From: Nesterenkonia sandarakina
GTDB taxonomy: Bacteria > Actinomycetota > Actinomycetes > Actinomycetales > Micrococcaceae
Direction: 5' to 3'
Assembly: GCF_013410215.1 (NCBI RefSeq)
Contig: NZ_JACCFQ010000001.1
Location: 2,790,001 to 2,854,000 of the forward strand
Length of the DNA: 64,000 nucleotides
A program made the position numbers and the translations under genes. The notes under the pieces are model-generated. The model was not told the origin of the DNA, made no database searches, and worked only from the letters and a program-made list of their open reading frames with translations. Positions 49,849 through 63,622 of the stretch are shown here, in pieces; the stretch's first letter is position 1; every line of letters begins with the position of its first letter.

Positions 49849-51048
49849 TCAGCTGGAGTAGGCAGAGTTCTCATGCACGTAGTCGTGGGTCAGGTCATTG
49901 GTGAGGATCGTGGCCTCGGCGTCGCCGGCCTTCAGATCGATGACCACCTTCACGTGGCGCCCGCGCAGGTCCACCAGGTCTCGGTCATCTCCGATGCCCC
50001 CGGCGCGGCAGATCCACACCCCGTTGACGCTGACATCGATGGTGGAGGGGTCGAAGTCGACGTCGGTGGTGCCCACCGCGGAGAGGATCCGGCCCCAGTT
50101 GGGGTCCTGTCCGAAGATCGCGGTCTTGAACAGGTTGGACCGGGCCACGGCGCGTCCGGCGGTCTCGGCCTGTTCCTCGGTGGCGGCATTGATCGTGGAG
50201 ATCGCGATCTCGTGGTGGGCGCCCTCGGCGTCGGCGATCAGCTGGGTGGCCAGATCCTGGCACACCTGGTTCAGCGCGGCCTGGAACTCGGAGAGGTCCA
50301 CTCCGGAGGGGTCGGCCTGCGGGTGCGCCCCGGAGGCCATCGCGATCACGGTGTCGTTGGTGGACATGCAGCCGTCGGAGTCGGCGCGGTTGAAGCTGAG
50401 CCGCACGGCTTCGCGCAGCGCGGCGTCGAGGTCGGGCTGGGTGATCACCGCGTCGGTGGTGAGCACCGAGAGCATGGTGGCCATCCCGGGGGCGAGCATC
50501 CCGGCGCCCTTGGCCATGCCGCCGATGGTGAAGTCCGCACCGGCCGTGCTGGAGACCTTCATGACCGAGTCGGTGGTCATGATGGCCTGCGCCGCGCGCT
50601 GCCCGGCGGCCTCAGCAGGTGCCAGCTCGTTCACCGCGGCATGGATCCCCTCCAGCAGCGAGGGCATGTCCAGGCGGACCCCGATCAGCCCGGTGGAGCA
50701 GACCAGCACGTCCCCGGCGGAGACGTCGGCCCCGGTGGACTGCAGCTGCTCGGCCACGACCTCGGCGGTCTGGTGGGTGTCGGCGAAGCCGGGCGCACCG
50801 GTGCAGGCATTGGCCCCGCCGGAGTTCAGCACCACGGCGTCGGCGCGGCCATCGATGATCGCCTGCTGGGACCAGAGCACCGGTGCCGCAGCGACTCGGT
50901 TGGTGGTGAAGACGGCGGCTGCGTGCTTGTCCGGTCCGTGGTTGAGCACCAGCGCGACGTCGCGCGGCGGGTTGCCCTGGGCGTCGGCGGACTTCAGGCC
51001 GGCGGCGACGCCTGCGGCGCTGAATCCTTTCGCGGCGGTGACACTCAT
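49849..51048 (-). CDS. argJ: bifunctional ornithine acetyltransferase / N-acetylglutamate synthase
   Basis: A 399-residue precursor that cuts itself before the Thr of [13 protein letters not shown] to give alpha and beta chains; the new N-terminal Thr is the nucleophile. Other family stretches are [54 protein letters not shown] and [14 protein letters not shown]. It recycles the acetyl group in arginine synthesis. The ATG at 51048 overlaps the argC stop by 4 nt; an open frame reaching 51246 is a shadow over argC. Confidence 0.96.
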
Positions 51049-52076
51049 GGGGAGACTCCCAGCAGGTTGAGCCCGGTGGTCTCTTCGAGACCGAGGGCGA
51101 TGTTCATGGACTGCACGGCGCCGCCGGCGGTGCCCTTGGTCAGGTTGTCTGCGGCCGAGACGACGACGGCGCGCCCGGCGTGCTCGTCCACGGCCAGCTG
51201 GATGGTGACGTGGTTGGAGCCCACCACCTGCTTGGTGGCCGGCCACTGGCCCTCCGGGAGCAGGTGGACGAAGGCCTCGGCGTCGTAGTGTTCGCGGTAG
51301 GCCGCGCGCAGTCCCGCCTCGGTGGTGCCAGGTGCCAGCTTGGCGGTGGAGGTGGCCAGGATGCCGCGCGGCATCGGGGCCAGGGTGGGGGTGAAGGAGA
51401 CCTGGACCGGGGTACCGGCCGCGCCGCTGAGGCCCTGTTCGATCTCCGGGGTGTGCCGGTGCACCCCGCCGACCCCGTAGGGGCTCATCCCGCCGATGAC
51501 CTCGGCGCTGAGCAGGTGGGGTTTCAGCGCCTTGCCTGCACCTGAGGTGCCGGTGGCCGCGACGATCACGATGTCATCGGGGGCCAGCAGTCCCGCCGCC
51601 AGGCCAGGGGCCAGACCGAGCATGATGGTGGTGGGATAGCAGCCGGGCACCGCGATGCGCCGGGCGCCGGTGAGTGTGGCGCGGGCTCCGGGCAGCTCGG
51701 GCAGCCCGTAGGGCCAGGTCCCATGGTGGGCGGAGCCGTAGAACTTCTCCCAGTCGGCGGCGGATTCCAGCCGGTGGTCGGCGGCGGCGTCGATCACGAT
51801 GGTGTCCTCGCCGAGCTGGGCGGCGATCTCCGCCGAAGCTCCGTGCGGCAGGGCCAGAAAGACGACGTCGTGTCCGGCCAGGTTCTCCGCGGTGGTCTCC
51901 ACCAATACCCGGTCTGCCAGGGAGAGCAGGTGCGGCTGCACGCTGCCCAGGCGCTCCCCTGCGCTGGAATGGGCGGTGACGGCGCCGATGTGAACCTCGG
52001 GGTGGCCGGCCAGCAGTCGCAGGACTTCTCCCCCGGCGTAGCCTGAGGCTCCGGAGACAGCGATCGAATAGGTCAT
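51045..52076 (-). CDS. argC: N-acetyl-gamma-glutamyl-phosphate reductase
   Basis: A 343-residue NADPH-dependent reductase. The nucleotide loop is [16 protein letters not shown], the catalytic Cys is in [16 protein letters not shown], and [11 protein letters not shown] holds the catalytic His. First gene of argC-J-B-D-F-R. Paired ARG-box-like motifs lie 18–51 bp upstream of its ATG. Confidence 0.96.
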
Positions 52077-52093
52077 ACCCAGCAGTCTAGGCC

Positions 52094-52127
52094 GATATAT
52101 GCGTCATCACCAATAATTATGCATTAC
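52094..52127. promoter_or_regulatory. tandem ARG-box-like operator upstream of argC
   Basis: On the plus strand ATATATGCGTCATC and AATAATTATGCATTAC; TATGC and AATAATTATG are nine bases apart, as before argG (where the pair reads on the other strand). The second half, TAATGCATAATTATTG on the gene strand, is close to the general ARG-box pattern. It likely overlaps the argC promoter. Confidence 0.7.
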
Positions 52128-52179
52128 TGGGGTCCGGGAACTTCGCCGCCGCGGGCCTGCGTTGGGTACGCTTGCGGCC

Positions 52180-53187
52180 ATGAATGAACAGAGCGTTTTC
52201 CCGGAGGACCTGCCCGACAGAGCCCGTGTGGTGCATGCCGAGCAGGCAGGTGGGACCGAGGTGCTCATCGAGGCTCAGGTGCCGCTGCCCGAGCCGGGGC
52301 CGAACCAGGTGCTCGTGGAGACCGCCGCGACCGGGGTCAACTTCATCGAGACCTACCAGCGCAGCGGCGTCTACCCCGTGGAGCACCCCTTCGTTCCCGG
52401 CACCGAAGCCACTGGGCGCATCCTGGCCGTGGGAGAATCCGTGGAGTCCCTCTCGGTGGGCCAGCGCATCACCACCCTGGAGGCTTCCACCGGCACCTAC
52501 GCCAGCCACTTCCTGGTCGACGCCGGCAAAGCCGTCCGCGTCCCGGATGAGGTCACCGATGAGCAGGCCGCCGCACTGCCGCTGCAGGGCATCACCGCCC
52601 ACTACCTGGTCAACTCCACCTACCGGGTCTCCCCCGGCGAGACCGTGCTGACCCACGCCGGCGCCGGCGGGGTGGGTCAGATCCTGACTCAGCTGCTCAA
52701 GGCCAAGGGGGTGCGGGTGATCACCACCTGCTCCACCGAGGAGAAGGCCCAGATCGCGCAGGCTGCCGGAGCCGACTATGTGCTGGGCTATGAGGACTTC
52801 GCCGAGCGGGTCCGTGAGATCACCAAGGGTGAGGGTGTGGCGGCGGTCTTCGACGGCGTCGGCAAGGACACCTATGTCGGTTCTCTGGACTCCCTGGCGG
52901 TCCGTGGGGTGTTCGTGCTCTACGGCGGCGCCTCCGGGCAGGTGCCCCCGCTGGACCCGCAGGAGCTCAACCGCCGAGGCGGGCTCTATGTCACCCGACC
53001 GGCCACGCACTGGTACCTGCGCAACGCCGAGGAGCGCAGCTGGCGCTACGCCGAGCTCTTCAGCGCCCTGACCAGCGGTGACCTCAAGCTCAGCATCGGA
53101 GCCAGCTACCCGCTCGCCGAGGCGGGACGAGCCCACGATGACCTGGAGAACCGCCGGACCACCGGCAAGCTGCTGCTGCGCCCCTGA
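52180..53187 (+). CDS. NADPH:quinone oxidoreductase (QOR/zeta-crystallin type)
   Basis: A 335-residue zinc-free medium-chain dehydrogenase/reductase. It has TAATGVNFIETYQRSGVYPVEHPFVPGTEATG, LQGITAHYLVNSTYRVSPGETVLTHAGAGGVGQIL (NADPH loop AGAGGVGQ) and the end RAHDDLENRRTTGKLLL. Such enzymes reduce quinones or other electrophiles in the cytosol. The ATG at 52180 is chosen. It diverges from argC and converges on nagB with a gap of 38 bp. Confidence 0.9.
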   Translation: MNEQSVFPEDLPDRARVVHAEQAGGTEVLIEAQVPLPEPGPNQVLVETAATGVNFIETYQRSGVYPVEHPFVPGTEATGRILAVGESVESLSVGQRITTLEASTGTYASHFLVDAGKAVRVPDEVTDEQAAALPLQGITAHYLVNSTYRVSPGETVLTHAGAGGVGQILTQLLKAKGVRVITTCSTEEKAQIAQAAGADYVLGYEDFAERVREITKGEGVAAVFDGVGKDTYVGSLDSLAVRGVFVLYGGASGQVPPLDPQELNRRGGLYVTRPATHWYLRNAEERSWRYAELFSALTSGDLKLSIGASYPLAEAGRAHDDLENRRTTGKLLLRP

Positions 53188-53225: not shown

Positions 53226-54008
53226 TCAGAGACCCTGCCAGGCAGGTTTCGCCGCGAAGGTCTGGCGGTAATAGTCGGCGAGCTGCAGTCGCGAAGCGGC
53301 CGCTTCATCAACCAACACCGTGGCGTGCGGATGCAGCTGCATCACGGTGGCTGGCCACAAGGCAGATATCGGACCCTCCACAAGTTGATGGACGGCCTCC
53401 GCCTTGTGTCTGCCGCTGGCAAGGAGAACCAAGTGTCGCGCTTCAGATATCGTGCCAAGTCCCTGGGTCACGCAGTGCACCGGCACCTTGTCGACGTCGC
53501 CGCCGAAGAACCGCGCGTTATCTGCGCGAGTCTGCGGAGCAAGTGACTTGATCCGAGTGCGCGAGCTCAAGGATGAGCCCGGTTCGTTGAAGCCTATGTG
53601 GCCATCAGTTCCGATTCCCAGCAGCTGGAGATCCACTCCCCCGGCCCGTGCGAGGGCTCGCTCATAGTCTGCGCAGGCCGCTGGGATGTCCGCCGCGAGC
53701 CCGTCAGGCCCGTGGACCCGCTCAGCGTCCCAGTGCACACGGTCCGCAAGCTCCTCCGCGATCACGTTGTGATACCTCTGTGGGTGGTCAGCGGGGAGCC
53801 CCACGTATTCATCCAGCATGAAGCCTCGCGCCCGCGCGAAGGACAATCCGTGCTGCTCATGGCGATGAATCAGCTCCCCGTAGACCGCCAGCGGACTCGA
53901 GCCGGTGGCAAGCCCGAGGGTTGAGTCGTCGTCACGGCGCAGCAACGCCTCTATCGCATCGGCGGCGAGTCTCGCCTGTTGATCGACTGGGGCAATGATG
54001 ACCTCCAT
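53226..54008 (-). CDS. nagB: glucosamine-6-phosphate deaminase
   Basis: A 260-residue enzyme that turns glucosamine-6-P into fructose-6-P and ammonia. It has LGLATGSSPLAVYGEL, FMLDEYVGLPADHPQRYHNVI (active-site Asp), LGIGTDGHIGFNEPGSS and VHCVTQGLGTISEARHLVLLASG. The start is ambiguous among ATG 54008, GTG 54011 and TTG 54014, all behind AAGGA. It is the last gene of the amino-sugar operon and the point where that pathway enters glycolysis. Confidence 0.94.
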   Translation of the reverse strand: MEVIIAPVDQQARLAADAIEALLRRDDDSTLGLATGSSPLAVYGELIHRHEQHGLSFARARGFMLDEYVGLPADHPQRYHNVIAEELADRVHWDAERVHGPDGLAADIPAACADYERALARAGGVDLQLLGIGTDGHIGFNEPGSSLSSRTRIKSLAPQTRADNARFFGGDVDKVPVHCVTQGLGTISEARHLVLLASGRHKAEAVHQLVEGPISALWPATVMQLHPHATVLVDEAAASRLQLADYYRQTFAAKPAWQGL

Positions 54009-54067
54009 CACCAATCACGTCCTTCTCTCGTTTCGGATCTGCAGCTGGATAGTCGTCTGGCTCAGCG

Positions 54068-56950
54068 TCACGCTGGAGTGCCTGGTTCCGTTCCCCTCGC
54101 GGCGACGTCGGCCGCCACCTCCAGCACATGACGGTAGGTGCGTCCGGTCGCACGGGTCATGGCGATCTCGCACGCCCGGTTGGACGACGCATGATCTGCG
54201 GCGTTGATCTGCTGAACTTCGCGTGCCTCTGCAGCGGTTGCGGAGGCGGTCAGCTCGGGATGCAGCATGCCCCGATCTCCGGCGAAGCCGCAGCAGGCCC
54301 AGTCATCGGGCACGTGAACCTGGTGCGCCACTGCCCGCGCGACACGGAGCAGGTCCGCTTCCCCACCAGCCTTCATCGTGGAGCAGGTGGGGTGCAGGGT
54401 CAGCGACTCGATACGCTGCCCCGGTTCGATCTCCAGACGGGGCAGCACGTGTTCGGCCACGAAGCTCACGGCGTCGATGACTCGTCCGGCTCGCGGGTCC
54501 CCCGCCGCGCTTGCCGCAGCCATGATCGAGGCGACACCTTCTGTGCAGGAGCTTGCGTCCACGACGACGGGGAGCAGATCCTCGACTCGATCATTCACAA
54601 GTCGCCTGGTGCGATCCACCGAGTCGAGAACCTGCTCTGCCATGGCCTCATGGCCCTCGGCGAGACCTTTGGAGGACCATGGGGTGCCGCAACAGAGTGC
54701 ATCGACCTGCTTGGGCATCACCAGATTCAGTCCGACGATTCCGCACAGCTCTGCGACCGAGGACTGCGCGCCTCGAGACCCATCGGGGGCGGAAAACATC
54801 GCACCCTGACAGCTCGGCAGAAAGAGGGCGGCAACCGGCTTCACCGGGTCCCCCTCAAGGTTCACACCACTGCGGCGCCGTCCGCCGGAGGGCAGGTCCG
54901 GTGTCCAGAGAGGCACCGTCTCGGCCCCCAGCATCGATCGCACCGCGGCGTTCGGCCACGCGATCGCAGCGCTTGGCAGTGCAGAGGCGGCGTCCAGCCC
55001 ACGACCGGCGGCCTGCGTGACGGCTGACCATCGATTGGCGGCCAGCTTGCCCAGGCGCTGCTGAGCAGGGCCCCTGCTCTCTTCCCGCAGCCGCTTGACC
55101 AGCGCGCCGGTGTCTATGCCCACGGGGCATGCGGTGGCGCACATGCCATCGGCGGCGCAGGTCTGGAGACTGTCGTACTGCTGCTGCGAATCCAGCTCCG
55201 CGACGAGGGTTCGATCTCCGCGGGACAGTGCCCGCTCGCGTTCTCGACGCACCACGATCCGCTGCCGCGGGGTGAGCGTGAGATCCCTGCTGGGACAGAC
55301 CGGTTCGCAGTAGCCACACTCGACGCAGCTATCCACTTCAGCATCGACGCGATCCACCGGTTTGAGGTGATTCACATGTGCCTTGTCGTCCGCCGTGAGC
55401 ACCACGCCTGGGTTGAGGGTCCCCGATGGATCGCAGGCTGCCTTGATCCGGTGGAGGACCTGGACCAGGTCCGGCGAGTACTGCCGATCGATGAACGGGG
55501 CCATCGCACGTCCCGTGCCGTGCTCCGCTTTGAGGTTGCCGCCTTGACGAAGAACCAGCTCCACGAGGTCCTCGGTGAAGGCCGCCAAGCGCTCCAGCGC
55601 CGCGGGGTCCTCGGTGTCCTCGGTCAGCATGAAGTGGATGTTGCCGTCCTTCGCATGACCGAAGATCACCGGATCCACATATCCGTGGTCCGCCAGCAGA
55701 ACGGAGAGCTCCTCGCAGGTGTGGGCGAGGCGCTGAACCGGCACCACCACGTCCTCTAGCAGAGCCATGGTCCCGCTGGGGCGTGCACCCGCAACCGCCG
55801 CGTAGAGTCCCTTGCGGACTGCCCACAGCTGCGCTCGGCGGCTCATGTCACGGGTCAGCTCCACCGGATGCGTCGTCGGGGTCCGGTCCAGGGTTGATGC
55901 CACCTGCGCGAGGTGTTGATCAAGTTCGAGCGCTGAATCGGCGCGATACTCGATGAGAATCGCGGCGTGTGCGGCTACCGTGAGATCCGCGATGACGGAG
56001 GGGACATCGGGGCTTCGACTTGCCACCTTCAAGGATGTGGCATCCATCAGCTCCAGGGCCTTGGCCCCGGTGCTGACCAGTTCGGGCAGGGCACGAGCAG
56101 CGACGTCGAGCGAGTCGAAGACCAAGAGTCCCGTCGCGCAGTGGGAGTGGACCGGCACGGTGCGGAACACCGCTTCGGCCACGAATCCCAGGGTCCCCTC
56201 GGAACCGACCATCAGCTGCAGGAGTATCTGGACCGGATCGTCATGGAGACAGAGTGCGTCGAGGGAGTATCCCATGGTGTTCTTCATCGAGAATCGTTCA
56301 GCGATCTCGGTCATGGCGGACGGGTCTGCCCGAACCTGGTCCCTGAGCGCCTCTAGTTCGGTGACCAGTCCAGGTTCTTCCGCACGAAGACACTGCAGGG
56401 CGTCGTCTCTGGAGGTGTCCACGACTGTCCCGGAGGTCAGAACGAGCGTCATCGACTCCAGGGTCTTTGCGCTGTTGTATTCGATCCCTGCGGCCATGCC
56501 CGAAGAGTTGTTCGCGATCACCCCTCCAACGGTGCACGCCGCTTCGCTTGCTGGATCTGGTCCCAGGGCGCGACCATGGCGAGCCAGGCGGATGTTGACC
56601 GCGCGAAGCGTGGCACCTGGTTGAACCCGGACACGGCGTCCCTCGTCGAAGACCTCGATCGCGCGAAAGCCGCGTCTGGTATCGACCTGGATGCCGGTCC
56701 CGCAGGACTGTCCGGACAGACTCGTCCCTCCGGACCTGAAGGTGACCGACGTGCCGTGCTCGGCCGCTAGCTGAAGCACGGCACTCACCGAAGCGATGTC
56801 CTCGGCAATGACGATCACCTCCGGAACTAGCAGGAAGTGCGAGGCATCGTGGGCTCGTGCGTGCAGGTCAATCGCACGGTCGAGCACCTTCTCGGCACCC
56901 AGCTCGCGGCGCAGATCGGCGATGAGGCGTGCGGGCGCTTTCAACTCCAT
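54068..56950 (-). CDS. FAD/Fe-S D-lactate dehydrogenase (GlcD–GlcF-type fusion)
   Basis: A 960-residue fusion. The N-terminal half is a FAD-binding PCMH/FAD-oxidase domain (VTFRSGGTSLSGQ, DPASEAACTVGGVIANNSSGMA and EHGTGRAMAPFIDRQ). Next come two 4Fe-4S motifs, CVECGYCEPVCPS and CAADGMCATACPVGID. The C-terminal part has CCG/heterodisulfide-reductase-like cysteines (DALCCGTPWSSKGL, LHPTCSTMKAGGE and ACCGFAGDRGMLHPEL). This layout is that of membrane-linked D-lactate or 2-hydroxyacid dehydrogenases (Dld/YdiJ type). Inside a murQ operon, the natural substrate is the D-lactate released by MurQ, giving pyruvate and reduced quinone. It overlaps nagK by 10 bp. Confidence 0.88.
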   Translation of the reverse strand: MELKAPARLIADLRRELGAEKVLDRAIDLHARAHDASHFLLVPEVIVIAEDIASVSAVLQLAAEHGTSVTFRSGGTSLSGQSCGTGIQVDTRRGFRAIEVFDEGRRVRVQPGATLRAVNIRLARHGRALGPDPASEAACTVGGVIANNSSGMAAGIEYNSAKTLESMTLVLTSGTVVDTSRDDALQCLRAEEPGLVTELEALRDQVRADPSAMTEIAERFSMKNTMGYSLDALCLHDDPVQILLQLMVGSEGTLGFVAEAVFRTVPVHSHCATGLLVFDSLDVAARALPELVSTGAKALELMDATSLKVASRSPDVPSVIADLTVAAHAAILIEYRADSALELDQHLAQVASTLDRTPTTHPVELTRDMSRRAQLWAVRKGLYAAVAGARPSGTMALLEDVVVPVQRLAHTCEELSVLLADHGYVDPVIFGHAKDGNIHFMLTEDTEDPAALERLAAFTEDLVELVLRQGGNLKAEHGTGRAMAPFIDRQYSPDLVQVLHRIKAACDPSGTLNPGVVLTADDKAHVNHLKPVDRVDAEVDSCVECGYCEPVCPSRDLTLTPRQRIVVRRERERALSRGDRTLVAELDSQQQYDSLQTCAADGMCATACPVGIDTGALVKRLREESRGPAQQRLGKLAANRWSAVTQAAGRGLDAASALPSAAIAWPNAAVRSMLGAETVPLWTPDLPSGGRRRSGVNLEGDPVKPVAALFLPSCQGAMFSAPDGSRGAQSSVAELCGIVGLNLVMPKQVDALCCGTPWSSKGLAEGHEAMAEQVLDSVDRTRRLVNDRVEDLLPVVVDASSCTEGVASIMAAASAAGDPRAGRVIDAVSFVAEHVLPRLEIEPGQRIESLTLHPTCSTMKAGGEADLLRVARAVAHQVHVPDDWACCGFAGDRGMLHPELTASATAAEAREVQQINAADHASSNRACEIAMTRATGRTYRHVLEVAADVAARGTEPGTPA

Positions 56951-57939
56951 ATGAACCCCTCCTGTGGGCCCAATGCGTCCCTTGCGCGAAGCCGGGCCAG
57001 AGACAATGAACCTTCCAACGGGTCTCCCAGCGCCTCGCCGATTGAGACATCCCCGCGCTGGCGGGCGACTTCTTCGGCAAACGCATCGCTGAGCAGCGGT
57101 CCGGCACCCACGAGCCCACCCGTGAGTACCAGATTTGCTGGGCGGTCCTCCCCCAGCGCCGCGAGACCACTCTTCGCGGCCTCGCGGCCTGCATCGCGGA
57201 CCAGAACACAGGCGGTCTCGTCGCCGCGCCCGGCGACACCGACCACCGCGGCGGCGAATTCTGCAAGGACCCCCGCCCGATCTTGCCGCGTGTAGAGCTG
57301 AGCAGGCCAGGATTCGGGCGCGCCGAACCGTTCACGACCAGCTACCAGCAGGGCGTGACCACCGTGATCGACCCCGTCGTAGGCTCGCATGGCCGCTTCC
57401 AGGCCACGCCGCCCCAACCACGCCCCACCGCCACGATCGCCCAGAAGGTGTCCCCACCCATCGACTCGACGCCAGGCGTGGTCGCCGCCCGCGGCCTCCG
57501 CCATGCCGGGATGGCTGATCGCGATGGCACCGGTGCCCAGCGCCACCACTGCTCCTCCCGCTTCACCGAGCGCGCCGAGGTGGGCCGTGACTGCATCGAT
57601 GGCGATGGCAGTCGGGGTCCCGAGCTCGGCGCTCAACTGGACGGCCAACTCGTGAGGGTCTCGCACCAGCGACGCCAGCCCTGAGGCCCCGATACCGACT
57701 CCGGCAAGGCGCGAGGTCTCCTCCGGCCAGGACGTCATGGCATGAGAGAGCATCTCGCGTATCACCTGAGGGGCGGAGGACCCACCGGCATGCACCTCGA
57801 CTCGAGGCCCGTCCAACACTCTGCGTGGACCTCCTGCTGTGGGCAGCACCGCGAGGCGGCTCCCCGAGCCTCCGAGGTCCAGGCCTACCAGTGAGCCCGC
57901 CAGACCCCGCACCCTGGGATCTCCCACCGCGCGGATCAT
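56941..57939 (-). CDS. N-acetylglucosamine (or MurNAc) kinase, BadF/BcrA family
   Basis: A 332-residue ASKHA-fold sugar kinase. The phosphate-1 loop is LVGLDLGGSGSRLAVL, the adenosine region VVALGTGAIAIS, and GDRGGGAWLGRRGLEAAMRAYDG is typical of the GlcNAc kinase (NAGK/MurK) branch. Some members also phosphorylate MurNAc, which would suit the murQ context. It makes GlcNAc-6-P (or MurNAc-6-P) in the cytosol. Its start overlaps the murQ stop by 4 nt. Confidence 0.87.
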   Translation of the reverse strand: MIRAVGDPRVRGLAGSLVGLDLGGSGSRLAVLPTAGGPRRVLDGPRVEVHAGGSSAPQVIREMLSHAMTSWPEETSRLAGVGIGASGLASLVRDPHELAVQLSAELGTPTAIAIDAVTAHLGALGEAGGAVVALGTGAIAISHPGMAEAAGGDHAWRRVDGWGHLLGDRGGGAWLGRRGLEAAMRAYDGVDHGGHALLVAGRERFGAPESWPAQLYTRQDRAGVLAEFAAAVVGVAGRGDETACVLVRDAGREAAKSGLAALGEDRPANLVLTGGLVGAGPLLSDAFAEEVARQRGDVSIGEALGDPLEGSLSLARLRARDALGPQEGFIWS

Positions 57940-58868
57940 GGACGACGCGCCGTGGATCTCGGGTCTCGGAGCGCTTCGCGCACGGAACCTGCATGCTCCT
58001 CCAGCAGTTCGATGGCCTCCTGGACGGAAACCTCCCCCAGTGCGGCGAGGATACCCACCTTCAGGTCCCCTCCGGTTCTTTCAAGCAATGCACTGGCCTC
58101 GTATGCATCGAGATCGGCGGCGTCACACAGGATGCGGGTCGTCCGCTCACGGAGTTTTGCGTTGGTCGCAACCACCGAGACCATCAGGTTCTGCCAGGTG
58201 CGACCCAGCTCGATCATCAACGCGGTGGAGAATCCATTGAGCACGAGCTTCTGTGCGGTGCCTGCTTTCATCCGCGTAGAACCGGTGACGACCTCCGGGC
58301 CGGTGTTCAGAAGAAGGTGCTGGTCCGCGTGGGCTGCCACTCGCGCCTCGGGGTTGCTGGAGATCAGCACGGTGTACGCGCCAGCTCCCCTGGCCGACTC
58401 CAACGCCCCCGCCACGTATGGAGTATTGCCGCTCGAGGCGATGCCGATCGCGAGGTCGTCGGAACTCAGCGCGCTCGCATCGGCGCGTCCAGATTCGACG
58501 GAGTCCTCCGCATTCTCGACGGCTTCCACGAGAGCCTGCGGTCCACCCGCGATGTGACCGACGACGCGGCCTGGTTCGAGGTTGTAGGTCGGCATCAGTT
58601 CGCTGGCGTCAAGGACACCGAGTCGACCCGACGTGCCTGCCCCGAAGTAATGCACCGTCCCTCCACGGCGAAGCCGGCGTGCAGCCTCGTGCACCACGGG
58701 GGCGAGCTCGGGAAGCACCGCAGCGACCGCGTCCACTGCCACACGATCCTCAGTGTTGAGCAGCTGCAGGACCTCCAGAGTGTTGAGGTCATCGAGGTTC
58801 ATGCTGCGCGGATTGCGCCGCTCCGTCGGAGGTAGGGCGCTGGATGCGGACTCGACACTGGGGCTCAT
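57936..58868 (-). CDS. murQ: N-acetylmuramic acid 6-phosphate etherase
   Basis: A 310-residue SIS-domain lyase that splits MurNAc-6-P into GlcNAc-6-P and D-lactate. The SIS site is YFGAGTSGRLGVLDASELMPTY; further conserved blocks are GIASSGNTPYVAGAL and GPEVVTGSTRMKAGTAQKLVLN. The ATG at 58868 overlaps the transporter stop by 4 nt; a longer frame to 58979 reads into that gene. The enzyme is the diagnostic step of MurNAc recycling. Confidence 0.96.
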   Translation of the reverse strand: MSPSVESASSALPPTERRNPRSMNLDDLNTLEVLQLLNTEDRVAVDAVAAVLPELAPVVHEAARRLRRGGTVHYFGAGTSGRLGVLDASELMPTYNLEPGRVVGHIAGGPQALVEAVENAEDSVESGRADASALSSDDLAIGIASSGNTPYVAGALESARGAGAYTVLISSNPEARVAAHADQHLLLNTGPEVVTGSTRMKAGTAQKLVLNGFSTALMIELGRTWQNLMVSVVATNAKLRERTTRILCDAADLDAYEASALLERTGGDLKVGILAALGEVSVQEAIELLEEHAGSVREALRDPRSTARRP

Positions 58869-60361
58869 CGTTGCATCTCCGTGAGCTGCACGGGCGCCGC
58901 GGGAGTGGAGTGACGCAGGGAGAGCAGACCGCCGACCGCGAACGTCACCAGGACACCCATCAGCGGGTACCACTGCCACGCCACCCAGACTTCTCCCACC
59001 ACGTACTTCTCCATCACGAAGAAGAATGCGTTGACGGCGACTGCGAACACGAAAGCGATATTCGCATCCGCCGCGCGGGCCCGCTTGTTGATGATGCCGA
59101 ACATGAAGGCTCCCAACAGTCCGCCGTAGGTGATTCCGGCGACCCCCAGGGCGAGGACGACGATGTTGCCTTCATCGGAGCGGAACACCATCGCCGGAGC
59201 GATGAAGGCGAGTCCCCAGCCGATGGTCGCCCAGCGGCCGGCGCGGAGCCCCTGCTCGTCGGTGAGGGGGGTCTTCTTCAGCCGCGCGTAGACGTCTGTG
59301 ACCGTGGATGAGGACAGTGCCGAGAGCGAGGAGGACAGTGTTGACATGGCGGCCGCCAGGATTCCTGCGAGCAGCAATCCGGTCACACCTGGTGGCAGAC
59401 CTTCCACGATGAACATCGGGAAGATCTCGTCGTCGCGGGTCAGACCCAGTGAGTCCGGAGTCGCCTGATCGTAATAGCCCCACAGCGCCAGCCCCACCAG
59501 CAGGAAGACGGCGAACTGGAACAGCACGATGACGCCGGAGACGATGATGGCCTTCTGCGCCTCCGCCTTGGTGCGGCAGGCCAGCAGCCGCTGCACTACA
59601 AGCTGGTCGGAACCGTGGGAGGCCATGGCGAAGACCGCGCCTCCGAGCAGCGATGCGATGAATGACCCGCTGGTGGAGATCGGGTTGCCCTCGAAGATGA
59701 ACATGCTCAGTTTGCCGGCTTCGGCGGCCTCCGTGAACCAGCCTCCGCCGGTGGCAGATGTGATCACGATGATGGAGAGGATGCCGCCACCGACGTAGAG
59801 AAACATCTGGGCCACATCGACCCAGACGACTGCCTTGATGCCGCCGATGAATGTGTAGAGGATGGTGACCACTGCGAGCACCACGATGATCGTGAAGTAG
59901 TTCGCGTTGATGCCGATTCCGTCAAGGATGATTTTCAAGGGAATCGCGGCGGCCAGCACACGTATGCCGTCGGCCAGCAGCCGCGTGATCAGAAACGTCA
60001 CACCTGCCGTGGTCTGTGTGCTCTGCCCGAAACGCTTACCGAGGTACGCGTAGGCGGTGACCATTTCACCGTCGTAATAGCGTGGCAGCATGAAGAAGGC
60101 CACCACCACGCGTCCCAGGATGTAGCCGAGTCCCAGCTGGAGGTACGAGATGTCCCCCAGGTAGCTCATCACGGGGATGCCGATCACGGTGAGAGCACTA
60201 GTCTCGGTCGCGACGACAGACAGGCACACCGCCCACCAGGGCAGGTTGCGGCCGCCGAGGAAATAGTCCTTGAGCCCGGTCTGCCGACCGCTCAGTCTGA
60301 TACCCAGCCAGGCGGTGGCGGCGAGATACGCCACTATGACCAGAAGGTCTATGGTCTGCAC
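58865..60361 (-). CDS. sodium/solute symporter (SSS family), probable amino-sugar importer
   Basis: A 498-residue inner-membrane protein with about 13 hydrophobic segments. The start QTIDLLVIVAYLAATAWLGI and the following GLKDYFLGGRNLPWWAVCLSVVATETSALTVIGIPVMSYLGD are the SSS signature (sodium-coupled, LeuT fold). The GTG at 60361 has GAGG six bases upstream. Sitting between anmK and murQ with 4-nt coupling to murQ, it most likely imports MurNAc, anhydroMurNAc, GlcNAc or a sialic-acid-like amino sugar. The exact substrate is an inference. Confidence 0.88.
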   Translation of the reverse strand: MQTIDLLVIVAYLAATAWLGIRLSGRQTGLKDYFLGGRNLPWWAVCLSVVATETSALTVIGIPVMSYLGDISYLQLGLGYILGRVVVAFFMLPRYYDGEMVTAYAYLGKRFGQSTQTTAGVTFLITRLLADGIRVLAAAIPLKIILDGIGINANYFTIIVVLAVVTILYTFIGGIKAVVWVDVAQMFLYVGGGILSIIVITSATGGGWFTEAAEAGKLSMFIFEGNPISTSGSFIASLLGGAVFAMASHGSDQLVVQRLLACRTKAEAQKAIIVSGVIVLFQFAVFLLVGLALWGYYDQATPDSLGLTRDDEIFPMFIVEGLPPGVTGLLLAGILAAAMSTLSSSLSALSSSTVTDVYARLKKTPLTDEQGLRAGRWATIGWGLAFIAPAMVFRSDEGNIVVLALGVAGITYGGLLGAFMFGIINKRARAADANIAFVFAVAVNAFFFVMEKYVVGEVWVAWQWYPLMGVLVTFAVGGLLSLRHSTPAAPVQLTEMQR

Positions 60362-60408
60362 GTAGTTCCTCTTTCCATCCTCAGGGTGCTTTTTTGAGTG
60401 ATATCGGG

Positions 60409-61593
60409 TCAGCTCGCCACACGGAGCCGTACTGGTCCGGTACGGAGCGGTTCTGGCAGTCGGAGCGGCTTCGCTCCTGGTGTGAACCGACCGGCGAGTG
60501 TGCCGTGAGTTGCTCCGGTGACACTCGGCAGGGTCGCGGGCAGGCCGTGCCAGCTGAGCCAGCCCAGCAGGGCCACGAGGCACCCCTCCTTCGCCTCCGA
60601 GGGCAGGCCGAGCGCCTCGTCAGTTGTCGTGACCGGAACCCCTGCGCCCAGCTCGTCGCGCAGCTCCGACATCAGGGTGGGGTTTCTCGTTCCACCACCG
60701 GAGGCGGCAACCTCACCCACTCCCATAGGCATGCAGGCCTGGGCGACCGTGCGGGCGGTGAGACGGGTCAGCGTGGCGATGATGTCGTAGGGGTCCAGTC
60801 CGGGATGACGCGTCAGGTGACGGTCCAGGTACGGGCCGTGGAACAGCTCCTTGCCGGTGGATTTGGGAGCGGGGCGGGCGTAGTAGGGATCTGCCAACAG
60901 GTCTGCCAAGAGCGCCTCGTCGACATGTCCTTGGGCAGCCATCGCACCCTCCCGATCGAAGGACCTGGGGTCTCCGGTGATTCTGCGCGCCATCACGTCG
61001 ATCAGAGCGTTCGCCGGGCCGGTGTCGAAGGCGATCGTCTCACCGCGCGGTGAGACGATCGTGACGTTGGCGATGCCGCCGAGGTTCAGCATCGCGCGCG
61101 GCTGTTCCCCGCCGACCAGCATCAGATGGTCCAGCATCCCTGCAAGCGGTGCGCCCTGCCCTCCGGCGGCCACGTCTCGCGACCGGATGTCCGAGAGCAC
61201 AGGCACTCCCAGCCTTTCAGCGATCCACGCCGGCTGCCCCAGCTGGAGCGTGGACTCGACTGCGCCGTCGCGCACGTCGTGCCGGATGGTCTGCCCGTGC
61301 GAGACGATCAGGTCACAGTCGAGCCCCGTCTTCTGGCATATGGCGGCAACTGCCTCCGCACTGAGCTGACCCAGTCTTCTGTCCACGCTGCTCACCAACG
61401 CCAGGGGCACGGGCTCGGGCTCCAATAGGCGCAGGATATCCAGAGCCAGATCCGAGTCGAAGGCGACCTCGTGGAAGCTACGCAGCTCCATCTCCAGGTG
61501 AGGCTCATCGACCGATCCCTCGAGACGAAATTCCACCAGCGCGACGTCAAGGGCATCGGCGGATGTCCCAGTCATCAGTCCTGCCACGATCAT
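60409..61593 (-). CDS. anmK: 1,6-anhydro-N-acetylmuramic acid kinase
   Basis: A 394-residue ASKHA-fold kinase that hydrolyses the anhydro bond and phosphorylates anhydroMurNAc to MurNAc-6-P. Signature stretches are VAGLMTGTSADALDVALVEF, IVSHGQTIRHD, LNLGGIANVTIV, FDTGPANALIDVMARR and ASGGGTRNPTLM. Its ATG overlaps the gntR stop by 4 nt. The product feeds MurQ two genes on. AnmK is best known from Gram-negative cell-wall recycling, so its presence here points to use of lytic-transglycosylase products. Confidence 0.94.
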   Translation of the reverse strand: MIVAGLMTGTSADALDVALVEFRLEGSVDEPHLEMELRSFHEVAFDSDLALDILRLLEPEPVPLALVSSVDRRLGQLSAEAVAAICQKTGLDCDLIVSHGQTIRHDVRDGAVESTLQLGQPAWIAERLGVPVLSDIRSRDVAAGGQGAPLAGMLDHLMLVGGEQPRAMLNLGGIANVTIVSPRGETIAFDTGPANALIDVMARRITGDPRSFDREGAMAAQGHVDEALLADLLADPYYARPAPKSTGKELFHGPYLDRHLTRHPGLDPYDIIATLTRLTARTVAQACMPMGVGEVAASGGGTRNPTLMSELRDELGAGVPVTTTDEALGLPSEAKEGCLVALLGWLSWHGLPATLPSVTGATHGTLAGRFTPGAKPLRLPEPLRTGPVRLRVAS

Positions 61594-62312
61594 GAGGTCT
61601 CCTCAGCAGTGATTGTCGGCACCGTCAGTTCGGTCCGGATCTTGTAGCGGTCCCCGCGATAAAGGGAACGGACGAACTCGATGGGCTGTCCCTCGGGACC
61701 CCACGATGTGCGCTCGAACATCAGTGCCGGGGAGTGCAGAGGAACATGCAGATCTCTTGCCTCATCGCTGTCGAGCACGGTGGGTTCGATGGTCTGCACG
61801 CTGCGCCGCACGCTGATGCCGAGTCGCTCGCGAAGCAGGTCGTAGAAGGAATGATCCTCGAGATCCGCTGCGACCAGGTCAGGCATCAGGTCTCGTGGAA
61901 CGTTGAGCTCCTCCACCGCGATGGGCTCGTCATCAGCGAGCCTGAGGCGCGTAACCCGGGTGATCTCAGCCAGAGGATCCATGTTGAGTCGTCGACCGAA
62001 CCGCGCACCGGCAGCCAGCACGTCGAAGGCCAGGATCCGAGCACCTGGACGCATTCCGCGGGCACGCATGTCCTCAGAGAAGGAACTGGCGAGCAGGGGC
62101 TGGTCTAACTTCGGTCCAAGCGCGAACACTCCGGCTCCGTGGCGTCGGCGCACGGCTCCTCGTGCCACAAGCTCATCGATCGCACGCCGAAGAGTCATCC
62201 GAGAGACCCCGAGCTCCTGGGACAGATCTCGCTCGGGAGGAAATGGGTCCCCCGCGGACATCTGGTCAAGGCGATCCAGGAGCTGATCGCGCACATTGTG
62301 GTACTTGGTCAC
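61590..62312 (-). CDS. GntR/HutC-family (UTRA) regulator of amino-sugar use
   Basis: A 240-residue regulator. The winged helix is QLLDRLDQMSAGDPFPPERDLSQELGVSRMTLRRAIDELVARGAV. The C-terminal UTRA effector domain holds RLRLADDEPIAVEELNVPRDLMPDL and PIEFVRSLYRGDRYKIRTEL. This is the NagR/DasR type, which senses GlcN-6-P or GlcNAc-6-P. The GTG start at 62312 sits inside a perfect TGGTC-N4-GACCA inverted repeat, suggesting self-repression. It is the first gene of the minus-strand operon and diverges from nagA. Confidence 0.93.
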   Translation of the reverse strand: MTKYHNVRDQLLDRLDQMSAGDPFPPERDLSQELGVSRMTLRRAIDELVARGAVRRRHGAGVFALGPKLDQPLLASSFSEDMRARGMRPGARILAFDVLAAGARFGRRLNMDPLAEITRVTRLRLADDEPIAVEELNVPRDLMPDLVAADLEDHSFYDLLRERLGISVRRSVQTIEPTVLDSDEARDLHVPLHSPALMFERTSWGPEGQPIEFVRSLYRGDRYKIRTELTVPTITAEETS

Positions 62313-62319
62313 GAGACCA
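62306..62319. promoter_or_regulatory. operator TGGTC-N4-GACCA over the gntR start codon
   Basis: A perfect 5-bp inverted repeat (62306–62310 and 62315–62319) that includes the gntR start. It resembles the TGGTC…GACCA halves of NagR/DasR (dre) sites, though the spacer is 4 rather than 2 bp. Confidence 0.6.
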
Positions 62320-62346
62320 TTGAGACACAGCTCACCCCAAGAATCA

Positions 62347-62359
62347 AGACCACTGGACT
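62347..62359. promoter_or_regulatory. operator AGACCACTGGACT in the nagA–gntR region
   Basis: An odd palindrome, AGACCA-C-TGGACT, pairing at five of six positions. It shares the ACCA/TGGT halves of the site at 62306 and lies 66 bp before nagA. Probably the second site for the GntR regulator. Confidence 0.5.
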
Positions 62360-62425
62360 AACTTTGCGTCGGCTGCGATGATGTGAGGTGTCGCATCTGC
62401 AAGAATCACCGCCCCGGGAGGCCTG

Positions 62426-63622
62426 ATGGATCACGTTCTCTTCGCTGAATCTGCTCTGACTCCCGACGGAGTGCTCGGCCCCTATTGGCTTCGTATTGCG
62501 GCCGGGAGAATTGCGGAGGCTGGGCACGGCAGACCGCCGCAGCTTCCTGACGAATACGTCAAGGACGCGGTGATCGCCCCTGGCTTCGTCGATGTGCACG
62601 CCCACGGTGGCGGTGGCGCTGCCTTTACAGATGGTGCCGTTTCCGGGCGGAGTGCGTTGCTTGCTCATCGTCTTATGGGAACGACCACCATGTTGGCTTC
62701 TCTGGTAAGTGCTCCCGTGTCCGTGATCCTCGAGCAGGCCGCAGAGCTGAGTTCCCTGGTGGACTCCGGCGAGCTCGCAGGGGTCCATCTAGAGGGTCCG
62801 TGGTTGAGTCCGGATCACCGCGGGGCCCATGAGGCCGAGGTGCTCAGTGCTCCGACCTTCGACGCAGTTTCTGCTCTGCTCGAACACCCTGCGAGAAATC
62901 TGATCAGATACGTGACACTCGCACCCGAGCGTAACGGAGCGCTGGAAGCGATCCAACGGATGCGCTCCGCCGGGTCGACCCTGGGCATCGGTCACACTGG
63001 GGCCAGCTGCGCTCAGACCCGGGAAGCGATCGCCGCCGGGGCCAGCGCGGCCACGCACCTGTTCAATGCCATGAAGGGCCTGCACCACCGGGACCCAGGC
63101 GCGGCTCTGGCACTGCTGGAGGACCCCACGGCCTTCCTGGAACTGATCAGCGACGGGGTACATCTCGACGCCGAGATGATCCGCTTCGTCTGGGACTCCG
63201 CAACACGCAACGGCGGACCCCAGCGTCCGGTGCTGGTCTCAGACGCCATGCCCGGGGCTGCCGCTCCGGACGGTCGCTACAGACTTGGAGCGGTAGATGT
63301 CGAGGTTCTGGGAGGCGTGGCCAGACGCGTGACCTCAGACGGCAGCCTCGGTGCGATAGCGGGTTCAACGCTGACCCTCTCCGCTGCCGTGCGGGAGAGC
63401 ATACTTCGCGCCGGCATTGATCCGGCGCAGGCTCTCATGGCCGCGACCGCGAACCCTGCGTCCATGATCGGGCTTGAGGACGTCGGCAGGCTGCTCCCCG
63501 GTGGCCGTGCCGACCTGGTGCTGCTGGACCCGGAATGGCAGGTCCGCCGGGTGATGTACCGCGGCCGCTGGCTGGATCAGCGGTCCTCGGGTGCCTCACA
63601 GACCGATGGTCCGGCAGACTGA
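62426..63622 (+). CDS. nagA: N-acetylglucosamine-6-phosphate deacetylase
   Basis: A 398-residue amidohydrolase-fold enzyme that removes acetate from GlcNAc-6-P. It has the metal motif FVDVHAHGGGGAAFTDG, HLEGPWLSPDHRGAH, IGHTGASCAQTREAIAAGASAATHLFNAM and the catalytic Asp in VLVSDAMPGAAAPDG. It links MurQ (source of GlcNAc-6-P) to NagB. The ATG at 62426 follows GGGAGG by four bases. The gene diverges from the gntR-led operon and shares its control region. Confidence 0.94.
   Translation: MDHVLFAESALTPDGVLGPYWLRIAAGRIAEAGHGRPPQLPDEYVKDAVIAPGFVDVHAHGGGGAAFTDGAVSGRSALLAHRLMGTTTMLASLVSAPVSVILEQAAELSSLVDSGELAGVHLEGPWLSPDHRGAHEAEVLSAPTFDAVSALLEHPARNLIRYVTLAPERNGALEAIQRMRSAGSTLGIGHTGASCAQTREAIAAGASAATHLFNAMKGLHHRDPGAALALLEDPTAFLELISDGVHLDAEMIRFVWDSATRNGGPQRPVLVSDAMPGAAAPDGRYRLGAVDVEVLGGVARRVTSDGSLGAIAGSTLTLSAAVRESILRAGIDPAQALMAATANPASMIGLEDVGRLLPGGRADLVLLDPEWQVRRVMYRGRWLDQRSSGASQTDGPAD

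Follow-up and report, generated by a model that had tools for sequence, protein, structure and literature searches.

Why would a set of genes for the use of cell-wall amino sugars carry its own lactate-type dehydrogenase, and how would the sugars enter the cell without a phosphotransferase system (PTS)? Both questions are raised by eight genes at positions 53226-63622 of a 64,000-nucleotide stretch of the Nesterenkonia sandarakina genome (contig NZ_JACCFQ010000001.1, positions 2,790,001 to 2,854,000), a 3.02-Mb actinobacterial genome in two contigs; we refer to the whole stretch as the window. In our reading, which we consider quite probable, the island is a GntR-controlled, PTS-free and Na+-driven regulon for the complete use of N-acetylmuramic acid (MurNAc) and its anhydro form (anhydroMurNAc), in which a FAD/Fe-S dehydrogenase (Dld) oxidizes the D-lactate freed by the MurNAc-6-phosphate etherase MurQ. 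A Na+-coupled symporter of the SSS family would import MurNAc and/or anhydroMurNAc; the kinase AnmK would open and phosphorylate the anhydro form, and a BadF-type kinase would phosphorylate MurNAc and perhaps N-acetylglucosamine (GlcNAc). MurQ would then split MurNAc-6-phosphate into GlcNAc-6-phosphate and D-lactate, of which the former would be taken to fructose-6-phosphate by NagA and NagB, and the latter would be converted to pyruvate by the dehydrogenase, whose Fe-S and CCG domains would relay the electrons, probably into the quinone pool. What we computed is the gene content with its overlaps, the conservation of the operon and of single residues, the palindrome and the linkage counts; the biochemistry is proposed from them.

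Gene content and layout

The operon reads along the minus strand in the order GntR/UTRA-family regulator (61590..62312; PF00392 and PF07702), AnmK (anhydro-N-acetylmuramic acid kinase, 60409..61593), SSS (SLC5-type) symporter (58865..60361), MurQ (57936..58868), BadF-type kinase (56941..57939), Dld (54068..56950) and the glucosamine-6-phosphate deaminase NagB (53226..54014, with an alternative ATG start at about 54008). The GlcNAc-6-phosphate deacetylase NagA lies divergently on the plus strand (62426..63622), separated from the GntR gene by 113 bp. Profile matches bore out, in both position and family, each gene that an earlier note on this DNA had placed here: the symporter, AnmK, MurQ, the kinase, NagA, NagB and the 960-residue FAD/Fe-S dehydrogenase. 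Its inventory lacked the GntR/UTRA regulator, the first gene of the operon. The open reading frame listed for the symporter starts too early (60583); a GTG at 60361, which follows a ggaaagagg stretch, is likelier and gives a protein of 498 residues. MurQ likely starts at the ATG at 58868, which overlaps the symporter stop as ATGA. With these revised starts, neighboring genes overlap by 4 nt (GntR-AnmK, symporter-MurQ and MurQ-kinase) or 10 nt (kinase-Dld), and NagB begins about 53 nt after Dld. Because the genes overlap, a single transcript spanning GntR to at least Dld is likely. A consensus scan found no sigma-70-type promoter, and terminator-like sites numbered 3 against 3.3 in shuffled sequences, which says little either way.

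Several enzyme assignments are supported by family-specific profiles. MurQ scores 308.7 bits with TIGR00274 (cut-off 302) and matches the solved chains 4s12 (E 2.1e-76) and 1nri. AnmK matches PF03702 (353.9 bits), exceeds the cut-off of NF007146 (494.2 bits against 440) and is closest among solved chains to the AnmK structures 3qbw and 8bre, while NagB scores 402.4 bits with NF001684, over its cut-off. The kinase, which we describe as MurK/NagK-like, belongs to the BcrAD_BadFG family (PF01869); the nearest solved chains are 1zc6, a probable GlcNAc kinase, and, as a weak match (E 3.7e-8), the MurNAc/GlcNAc kinase 8zo3, which we take to be the MurK enzyme of Clostridium acetobutylicum and which is likewise of the BadF type.

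Conservation of the operon and of a candidate operator

We followed the operon through an order-wide sample of 396 genomes, in which symporter matches were taken at E <= 1e-130. Locus contents were determined by tblastn with the window proteins, a search that distant homologs may escape, and the Pfam scans of neighboring proteins covered a selection of the loci. The symporter is found in 34 genomes, all of which have MurQ (base rate at least 145/396) and 31 of which have AnmK (base rate 90/396); in 26 of the 34, MurQ lies in the same locus as the symporter. The earlier note had pointed to the set of SSS symporter, AnmK, MurQ and Dld as one to look for elsewhere, and it does recur: the order AnmK-SSS-MurQ-kinase-Dld is seen in Nesterenkonia, Isoptericola (our loci L108, L110, L112 and L114), Paraoerskovia marina (L115) and Brachybacterium squillarum (L111), with Dld directly behind the kinase in 7 of the 26 symporter-MurQ loci. 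GntR heads the clusters from outside Nesterenkonia except L110 and L114. Other Nesterenkonia genomes keep the same order with NagB behind; NagA is divergent in L018, L019 and L025, and gave no match in L021 and L022.

The region between GntR and NagA contains an inverted repeat, AGWCCANTGGWCT, present as AGACCACTGGACT at 62347..62359. We picked this pattern after aligning the GntR-NagA gaps of five Nesterenkonia genomes, where it forms an invariant block. All 27 fetched loci with a GntR gene (4 of which were in the pattern-defining alignment and 23 of which were not) have a single copy upstream of that gene, at a constant distance of 35-36 bp from its start. It is also present in 8 of 8 loci with GntR from a second, Dld-based locus set, drawn partly from the same genomes, and is absent from all fetched loci without GntR, save two more copies of the window's own place. 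The own genome has one exact match, at window position 62347. Matches with one mismatch occur there at 11 further places, against 19 for a reversed-pattern control; as this is not above the control, we claim no wider regulon. The simplest reading is that the palindrome is a dedicated switch for this island, and we infer that the GntR protein would bind it as its operator. The half site TGGTCT presumably resembles that of DasR.

Substrate of the dehydrogenase

According to the earlier note, MurQ releases D-lactate and the dehydrogenase closes the pathway by oxidizing it. Comparative evidence supports both the pathway and the D-lactate assignment, including the residues of Dld, its linkage to LldP or MurQ, and the co-occurrence of symporter and MurQ given above. 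Dld carries FAD_binding_4 (PF01565), FAD-oxidase_C (PF02913), 4Fe-4S (Fer4, two motifs) and CCG domains in one chain of 960 residues, and the 14 cysteines that we checked show no variation across 90 family rows. Its closest solved chains are glycolate oxidase 9qgz (the best match), LDHD 8jdc and LctD 7qh2. For mouse LDHD, the excerpted literature gives Arg347, His398, His405, Glu442 and His443 as catalytic residues and Val101, Trp351, Ser365 and Ile407 as a hydrophobic pocket, set beside Thr390, Lys401 and Asn443 in the pocket of human D2HGDH and a Tyr in GlcD at the position of LDHD Ala363 (PMC10589216, PMC7801405). Mapped by alignment, R379, H432, H439, E476 and H477 of Dld correspond to the five mouse catalytic residues in that order, and these (the subsite A arginine, two metal histidines, the glutamate and the catalytic histidine) never vary across the 90 rows, and neither does L398. 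The five catalytic residues give no hint of the substrate, because D2HGDH and GlcD have them too.

Subsite B of Dld, mapped in the same way with Val101 left out, is hydrophobic (Y383, A396, L398 and M441); across the 90 rows A396 differs in one, the M441 column holds Met or Leu, and at Y383 Tyr gives way to Phe in 8 rows and to Ile in 1. The residue aligned with M441 in E. coli YdiJ is Arg. Rows linked to MurQ (25, including L109 of Nesterenkonia sedimenti and the AnmK-linked L200) and rows linked to LldP (16) share these residues almost without exception. An AlphaFold model of Dld, built from an 11-row alignment, was too poor to check the pocket (mean pLDDT 56.3, pTM 0.40). Dld looks like a fused FAD/[4Fe-4S]/CCG D-2-hydroxyacid dehydrogenase of the D-lactate type (Dld-II-like) with its own Fe-S electron relay, for which quinone is the presumed electron acceptor.

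A competing explanation is that Dld acts on a different small D-2-hydroxyacid (glycolate or D-2-hydroxyglutarate, for example) and that its place in the operon is accidental or belongs to some other route. This would fit its best NCBIfam matches, YdiJ (D-2-hydroxyglutarate) and GlcD, though both are far below cut-off (193.9 bits against 1350 for the YdiJ equivalog NF049975, with 27% identity to YdiJ over 667 columns); it would also fit the glycolate oxidase as best solved match and the several hydrophobic D-2-hydroxyacids that mouse LDHD is reported to accept (excerpts of PMC10589216). At positions where D2HGDH has charged or polar residues, however, the Dld pocket is hydrophobic, and it has Ala where GlcD reportedly has Tyr, and we rejected a YdiJ-type D-2-hydroxyglutarate dehydrogenase because the specificity residues are missing. 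The linkage of Dld to LldP or MurQ likewise argues for D-lactate, although E. coli LldP is annotated as a lactate/glycolate symporter, so that the LldP linkage alone does not exclude glycolate. Overall, we consider another substrate highly improbable.

Linkage of the dehydrogenase to MurQ

To describe the linkage, we used the 80 loci with the best Dld matches, with flanks of up to 10 kb, several of them cut by contig ends. An LldP-like permease is present in 16 and MurQ in 14, and no locus has both; LldD was found in none of the 80 at E 1e-15. At E <= 1e-220, Dld occurs in 102 of the 396 genomes, 65 of which also have MurQ among the matches listed. In at least 15 of those 65, the two genes lie within 10 kb of one another, against 0.5 expected under the assumption of 3.7-Mb genomes and of rows independent of each other, the latter of which does not hold for relatives. 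On quick trees of Dld, with unlabeled rows not counted, the MurQ label changes at least three times relative to LldP-linked rows, which may also be one gain and two losses. It thus seems that Dld and MurQ became linked, or linked anew, on more than one occasion, with importers of the SSS, MFS and two ABC kinds.

The loci themselves vary in arrangement. Plantibacter has AnmK-MurQ-NagB-Dld, placed in L120 behind a sugar MFS protein with an RpiR-type regulator alongside, and L182 of Cryobacterium tepidiphilum, like L197, has an SBP_bac_5 protein, MurQ and AnmK facing an RpiR-type regulator and Dld. MurQ, an ABC system (SBP_bac_1), kinase and Dld make up L097; L098 has MurQ, kinase and Dld with room for the same ABC genes, the Pfam scan having covered L097 only. 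A long open frame in L098 hinted at a fusion of the kinase and Dld genes, an idea that was rejected because the matches to the two proteins are not in the same frame. MurQ-AnmK is accompanied in L195 by an SBP_bac_5 ABC system, an ABC ATPase, Dld and a NagA-like gene, and in L199 by a beta-lactamase-fold protein, an ABC ATPase, NagB and Dld; in L201, MurQ-AnmK and an SBP_bac_1 protein lie opposite kinase-Dld. In L196 (1135-11376), a BadF kinase and MurQ face GH3, NamZ, a GNAT protein and Dld, and NamZ stands beside Dld in L198. Within the genus of the window, N. sedimenti has a different cell-wall sugar cluster (L109, 10001-20085), in which Dld lies near AnmK, a NagZ-like GH3 protein, a BadF kinase, the exo-muramidase NamZ and an SBP_bac_5 protein, and in which MurQ was not seen within 10 kb.

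The symporter and the evidence against the proposed pathway

The symporter matches PF00474 (SSF, E 2.3e-37), and among solved structures it is closest to SiaT, a sialic acid symporter (5nv9, E 3.6e-49). Ligands of the Na2 site (S340/T341) and the Na3 site (Asp182 and two Ser) are present in 39 of 39 symporter rows, and sodium coupling is a well-supported prediction. The equivalents of Ser60 and Thr63, which hold the carboxylate in SiaT, are kept, whereas SiaT Thr58 is replaced by Glu. Strict SiaT membership was rejected, as the arginine corresponding to SiaT Arg135 is missing. Two other arginines in the region of transmembrane segment 3, R156 and R163 (527-residue numbering), are invariant among the symporter rows and may take over its role. 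Gene context points to MurNAc and/or anhydroMurNAc as the likely substrate.

Several observations weigh against the proposed pathway. For the enzymes, NagA scores 197.5 bits with TIGR00221 (E 3.2e-58), below the cut-off of 225.65, and the kinase scores 47.5 bits with the NagK profile NF046058, far below the cut-off of 370. For the dehydrogenase, 19 of the 26 symporter-MurQ loci are without Dld (17 of one genus, plus those of genomes G023 and G107), 50 of the 80 Dld loci have neither MurQ nor LldP, some of them being cut by contig ends, and no close Dld was found elsewhere in the G023 genome. Dld is dispensable to the unit. For the symporter, Arg135, a carboxylate ligand in SiaT, is Ala in 39 of 39 rows, and 8 of the 34 symporters have no MurQ nearby (7 in one family and 1 in genome G332), with identities of 73-83% in the 7 genomes and 56% in G332; as these copies stand away from MurQ, the substrate could be broader or different. 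The 7 stand-alone copies keep all the residues described above, which therefore do not separate them from the MurQ-linked group.

G023 belongs to the genus of the window, and its locus (L065, 820-8323) holds the operon and a divergent NagA with NagB directly after the kinase, a natural dld-minus version. The 7 stand-alone symporters (L071, L072, L085 and L092-L095; family f11) adjoin unrelated genes (dTDP-rhamnose genes, a CoA transferase, a DUF981 protein or an MFS protein among the scanned neighbors), and all 7 genomes have MurQ elsewhere; the G332 locus holds AnmK and NagB. A Fic/DOC family protein occurs both beside a stand-alone symporter (L071, 9461-10783) and behind the Plantibacter Dld (L120, 12891-14084).

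An alternative that bears on the symporter is that the island salvages only GlcNAc and glucosamine, or free MurNAc from outside, with AnmK as a minor add-on and the symporter carrying GlcNAc, sialic acid or another acid. The proximity to SiaT, the 8 of 34 copies away from MurQ and the presence of NagA and NagB would agree with this, as would the fact that levoglucosan kinase is also a close relative of AnmK among solved structures. On the other hand, AnmK scores above its equivalog cut-off and accompanies the symporter above its base rate (31/34 against 90/396), and none of the eight genes encodes a sialic acid enzyme. We regard this alternative as unlikely, and retain the import of MurNAc and/or anhydroMurNAc as the better account of the island.

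Possible sources of muramic sugars and D-lactate

Where would the substrates come from? In the own genome, no family match to an LldP-type lactate permease was found, which makes an internal source of D-lactate plausible. The genome encodes two RPF-type transglycosylase domains, one YceG/MltG protein and two GH3 proteins, whose action could yield anhydro and free muramic sugars; no match to NamZ was found in it. Lytic transglycosylases produce anhydroMurNAc ends, and AnmK could therefore plausibly draw its substrate from the wall of the cell itself, while free MurNAc would need the action of a muramidase and a glucosaminidase. A second, weak AnmK-family match (23.7 bits) lies elsewhere in the own genome (G000:C1:934312-934548, L002).

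Alternatively, the island might mainly serve to recycle wall material of the cell itself into new peptidoglycan, not to feed on sugar from outside. MurQ-based peptidoglycan recycling has been shown in Streptomyces coelicolor, Bacillus subtilis and Staphylococcus aureus, as excerpted from PMC5061867. NagB and the dehydrogenase nevertheless point to catabolism, and the operon is patchy within the genus, with Dld at >= 63% identity in 9 of 30 genomes (not all of them complete). Recycling as the main role thus appears somewhat doubtful to us, and catabolic use of MurNAc and anhydroMurNAc remains our preferred account.

Beyond the island, positions 49849-53187 of the window hold argJ- and argC-like genes on the minus strand, as read from their translations, and a quinone oxidoreductase-like gene on the plus strand (52162-53187) stands between these and NagB.

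Relation to known systems

Among the systems compared here, murT-murK-murQ of Tannerella forsythia is the nearest precedent for the combination of symporter, kinase and MurQ: like the present operon, it joins a sodium-symporter-type MurNAc transporter, a BcrAD/BadFG MurNAc kinase and MurQ, with no PTS (excerpts of PMC5790795). The novelty that the earlier note saw in a sodium symporter with MurQ instead of a PTS or AmpG is thus already taken, whereas its combination of AnmK and a D-lactate dehydrogenase in such an operon was not found described in the open-licence literature. Unlike here, no AnmK ortholog is predicted in the T. forsythia genome and the cluster has AmpG, according to the excerpted text of PMC7670621; the excerpts of both papers mention neither a D-lactate dehydrogenase nor a GntR regulator, and the organism belongs to a different phylum. 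The murQ-murP systems of E. coli and B. subtilis share the MurQ etherase, the MurNAc-6-phosphate intermediate and the D-lactate product, but import and phosphorylate by a PTS under a MurR regulator, with no linked lactate dehydrogenase mentioned in the excerpts of PMC5061867. Dld-II of Shewanella and Desulfovibrio resembles the dehydrogenase in its FAD domains, its 4Fe-4S dicluster and its oxidation of D-lactate; it is fused in Shewanella, a likeness taken from description only, and forms two subunits in DVU3027-28. Those enzymes sit in organic acid or lactate loci, whereas Dld sits in a MurNAc operon (excerpts of PMC4481167).

Within the open-licence literature, we likewise did not find described a recurrent dld-murQ linkage in actinobacteria or the union of these parts under one palindrome, and the excerpts of papers that treat both MurQ and a D-lactate dehydrogenase describe no linkage of their genes. 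What is new here seems to be the union of AnmK, the dehydrogenase and a regulator-operator pair in one unit, the individual parts being known. We lean, with some reserve, towards a wider reading, in which this is an actinobacterial PTS-free, sodium-driven regulon for MurNAc and anhydroMurNAc; a dedicated respiratory D-lactate dehydrogenase is a recurrent partner of MurQ, linked to it several times across SSS, ABC and MFS import, so that the lactyl group directly yields part of the energy of feeding on peptidoglycan; and the SSS protein represents, outside the setting of Tannerella MurT, a muramic acid symporter of Gram-positive bacteria.

PTS-free import of muramic acid is an open point in actinobacteria. 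In the excerpts available, a 2026 preprint on mycobacteria describes the MurNAc transporter as unknown while reporting AnmK, MurK, MurQ and NagB in Mycobacterium smegmatis (PMC13041923), and S. coelicolor is without a MurP ortholog (PMC5061867). With this operon come a candidate transporter and a regulator-operator pair that can both be put to the test, as well as a route by which the D-lactate half of MurNAc would be used. When Corynebacterium glutamicum was engineered for MurNAc, lactate built up, and the authors considered that raising dld could be of help, as excerpted from PMC6165865; here, by comparison, the use of MurNAc and the oxidation of D-lactate seem to have been joined by evolution.

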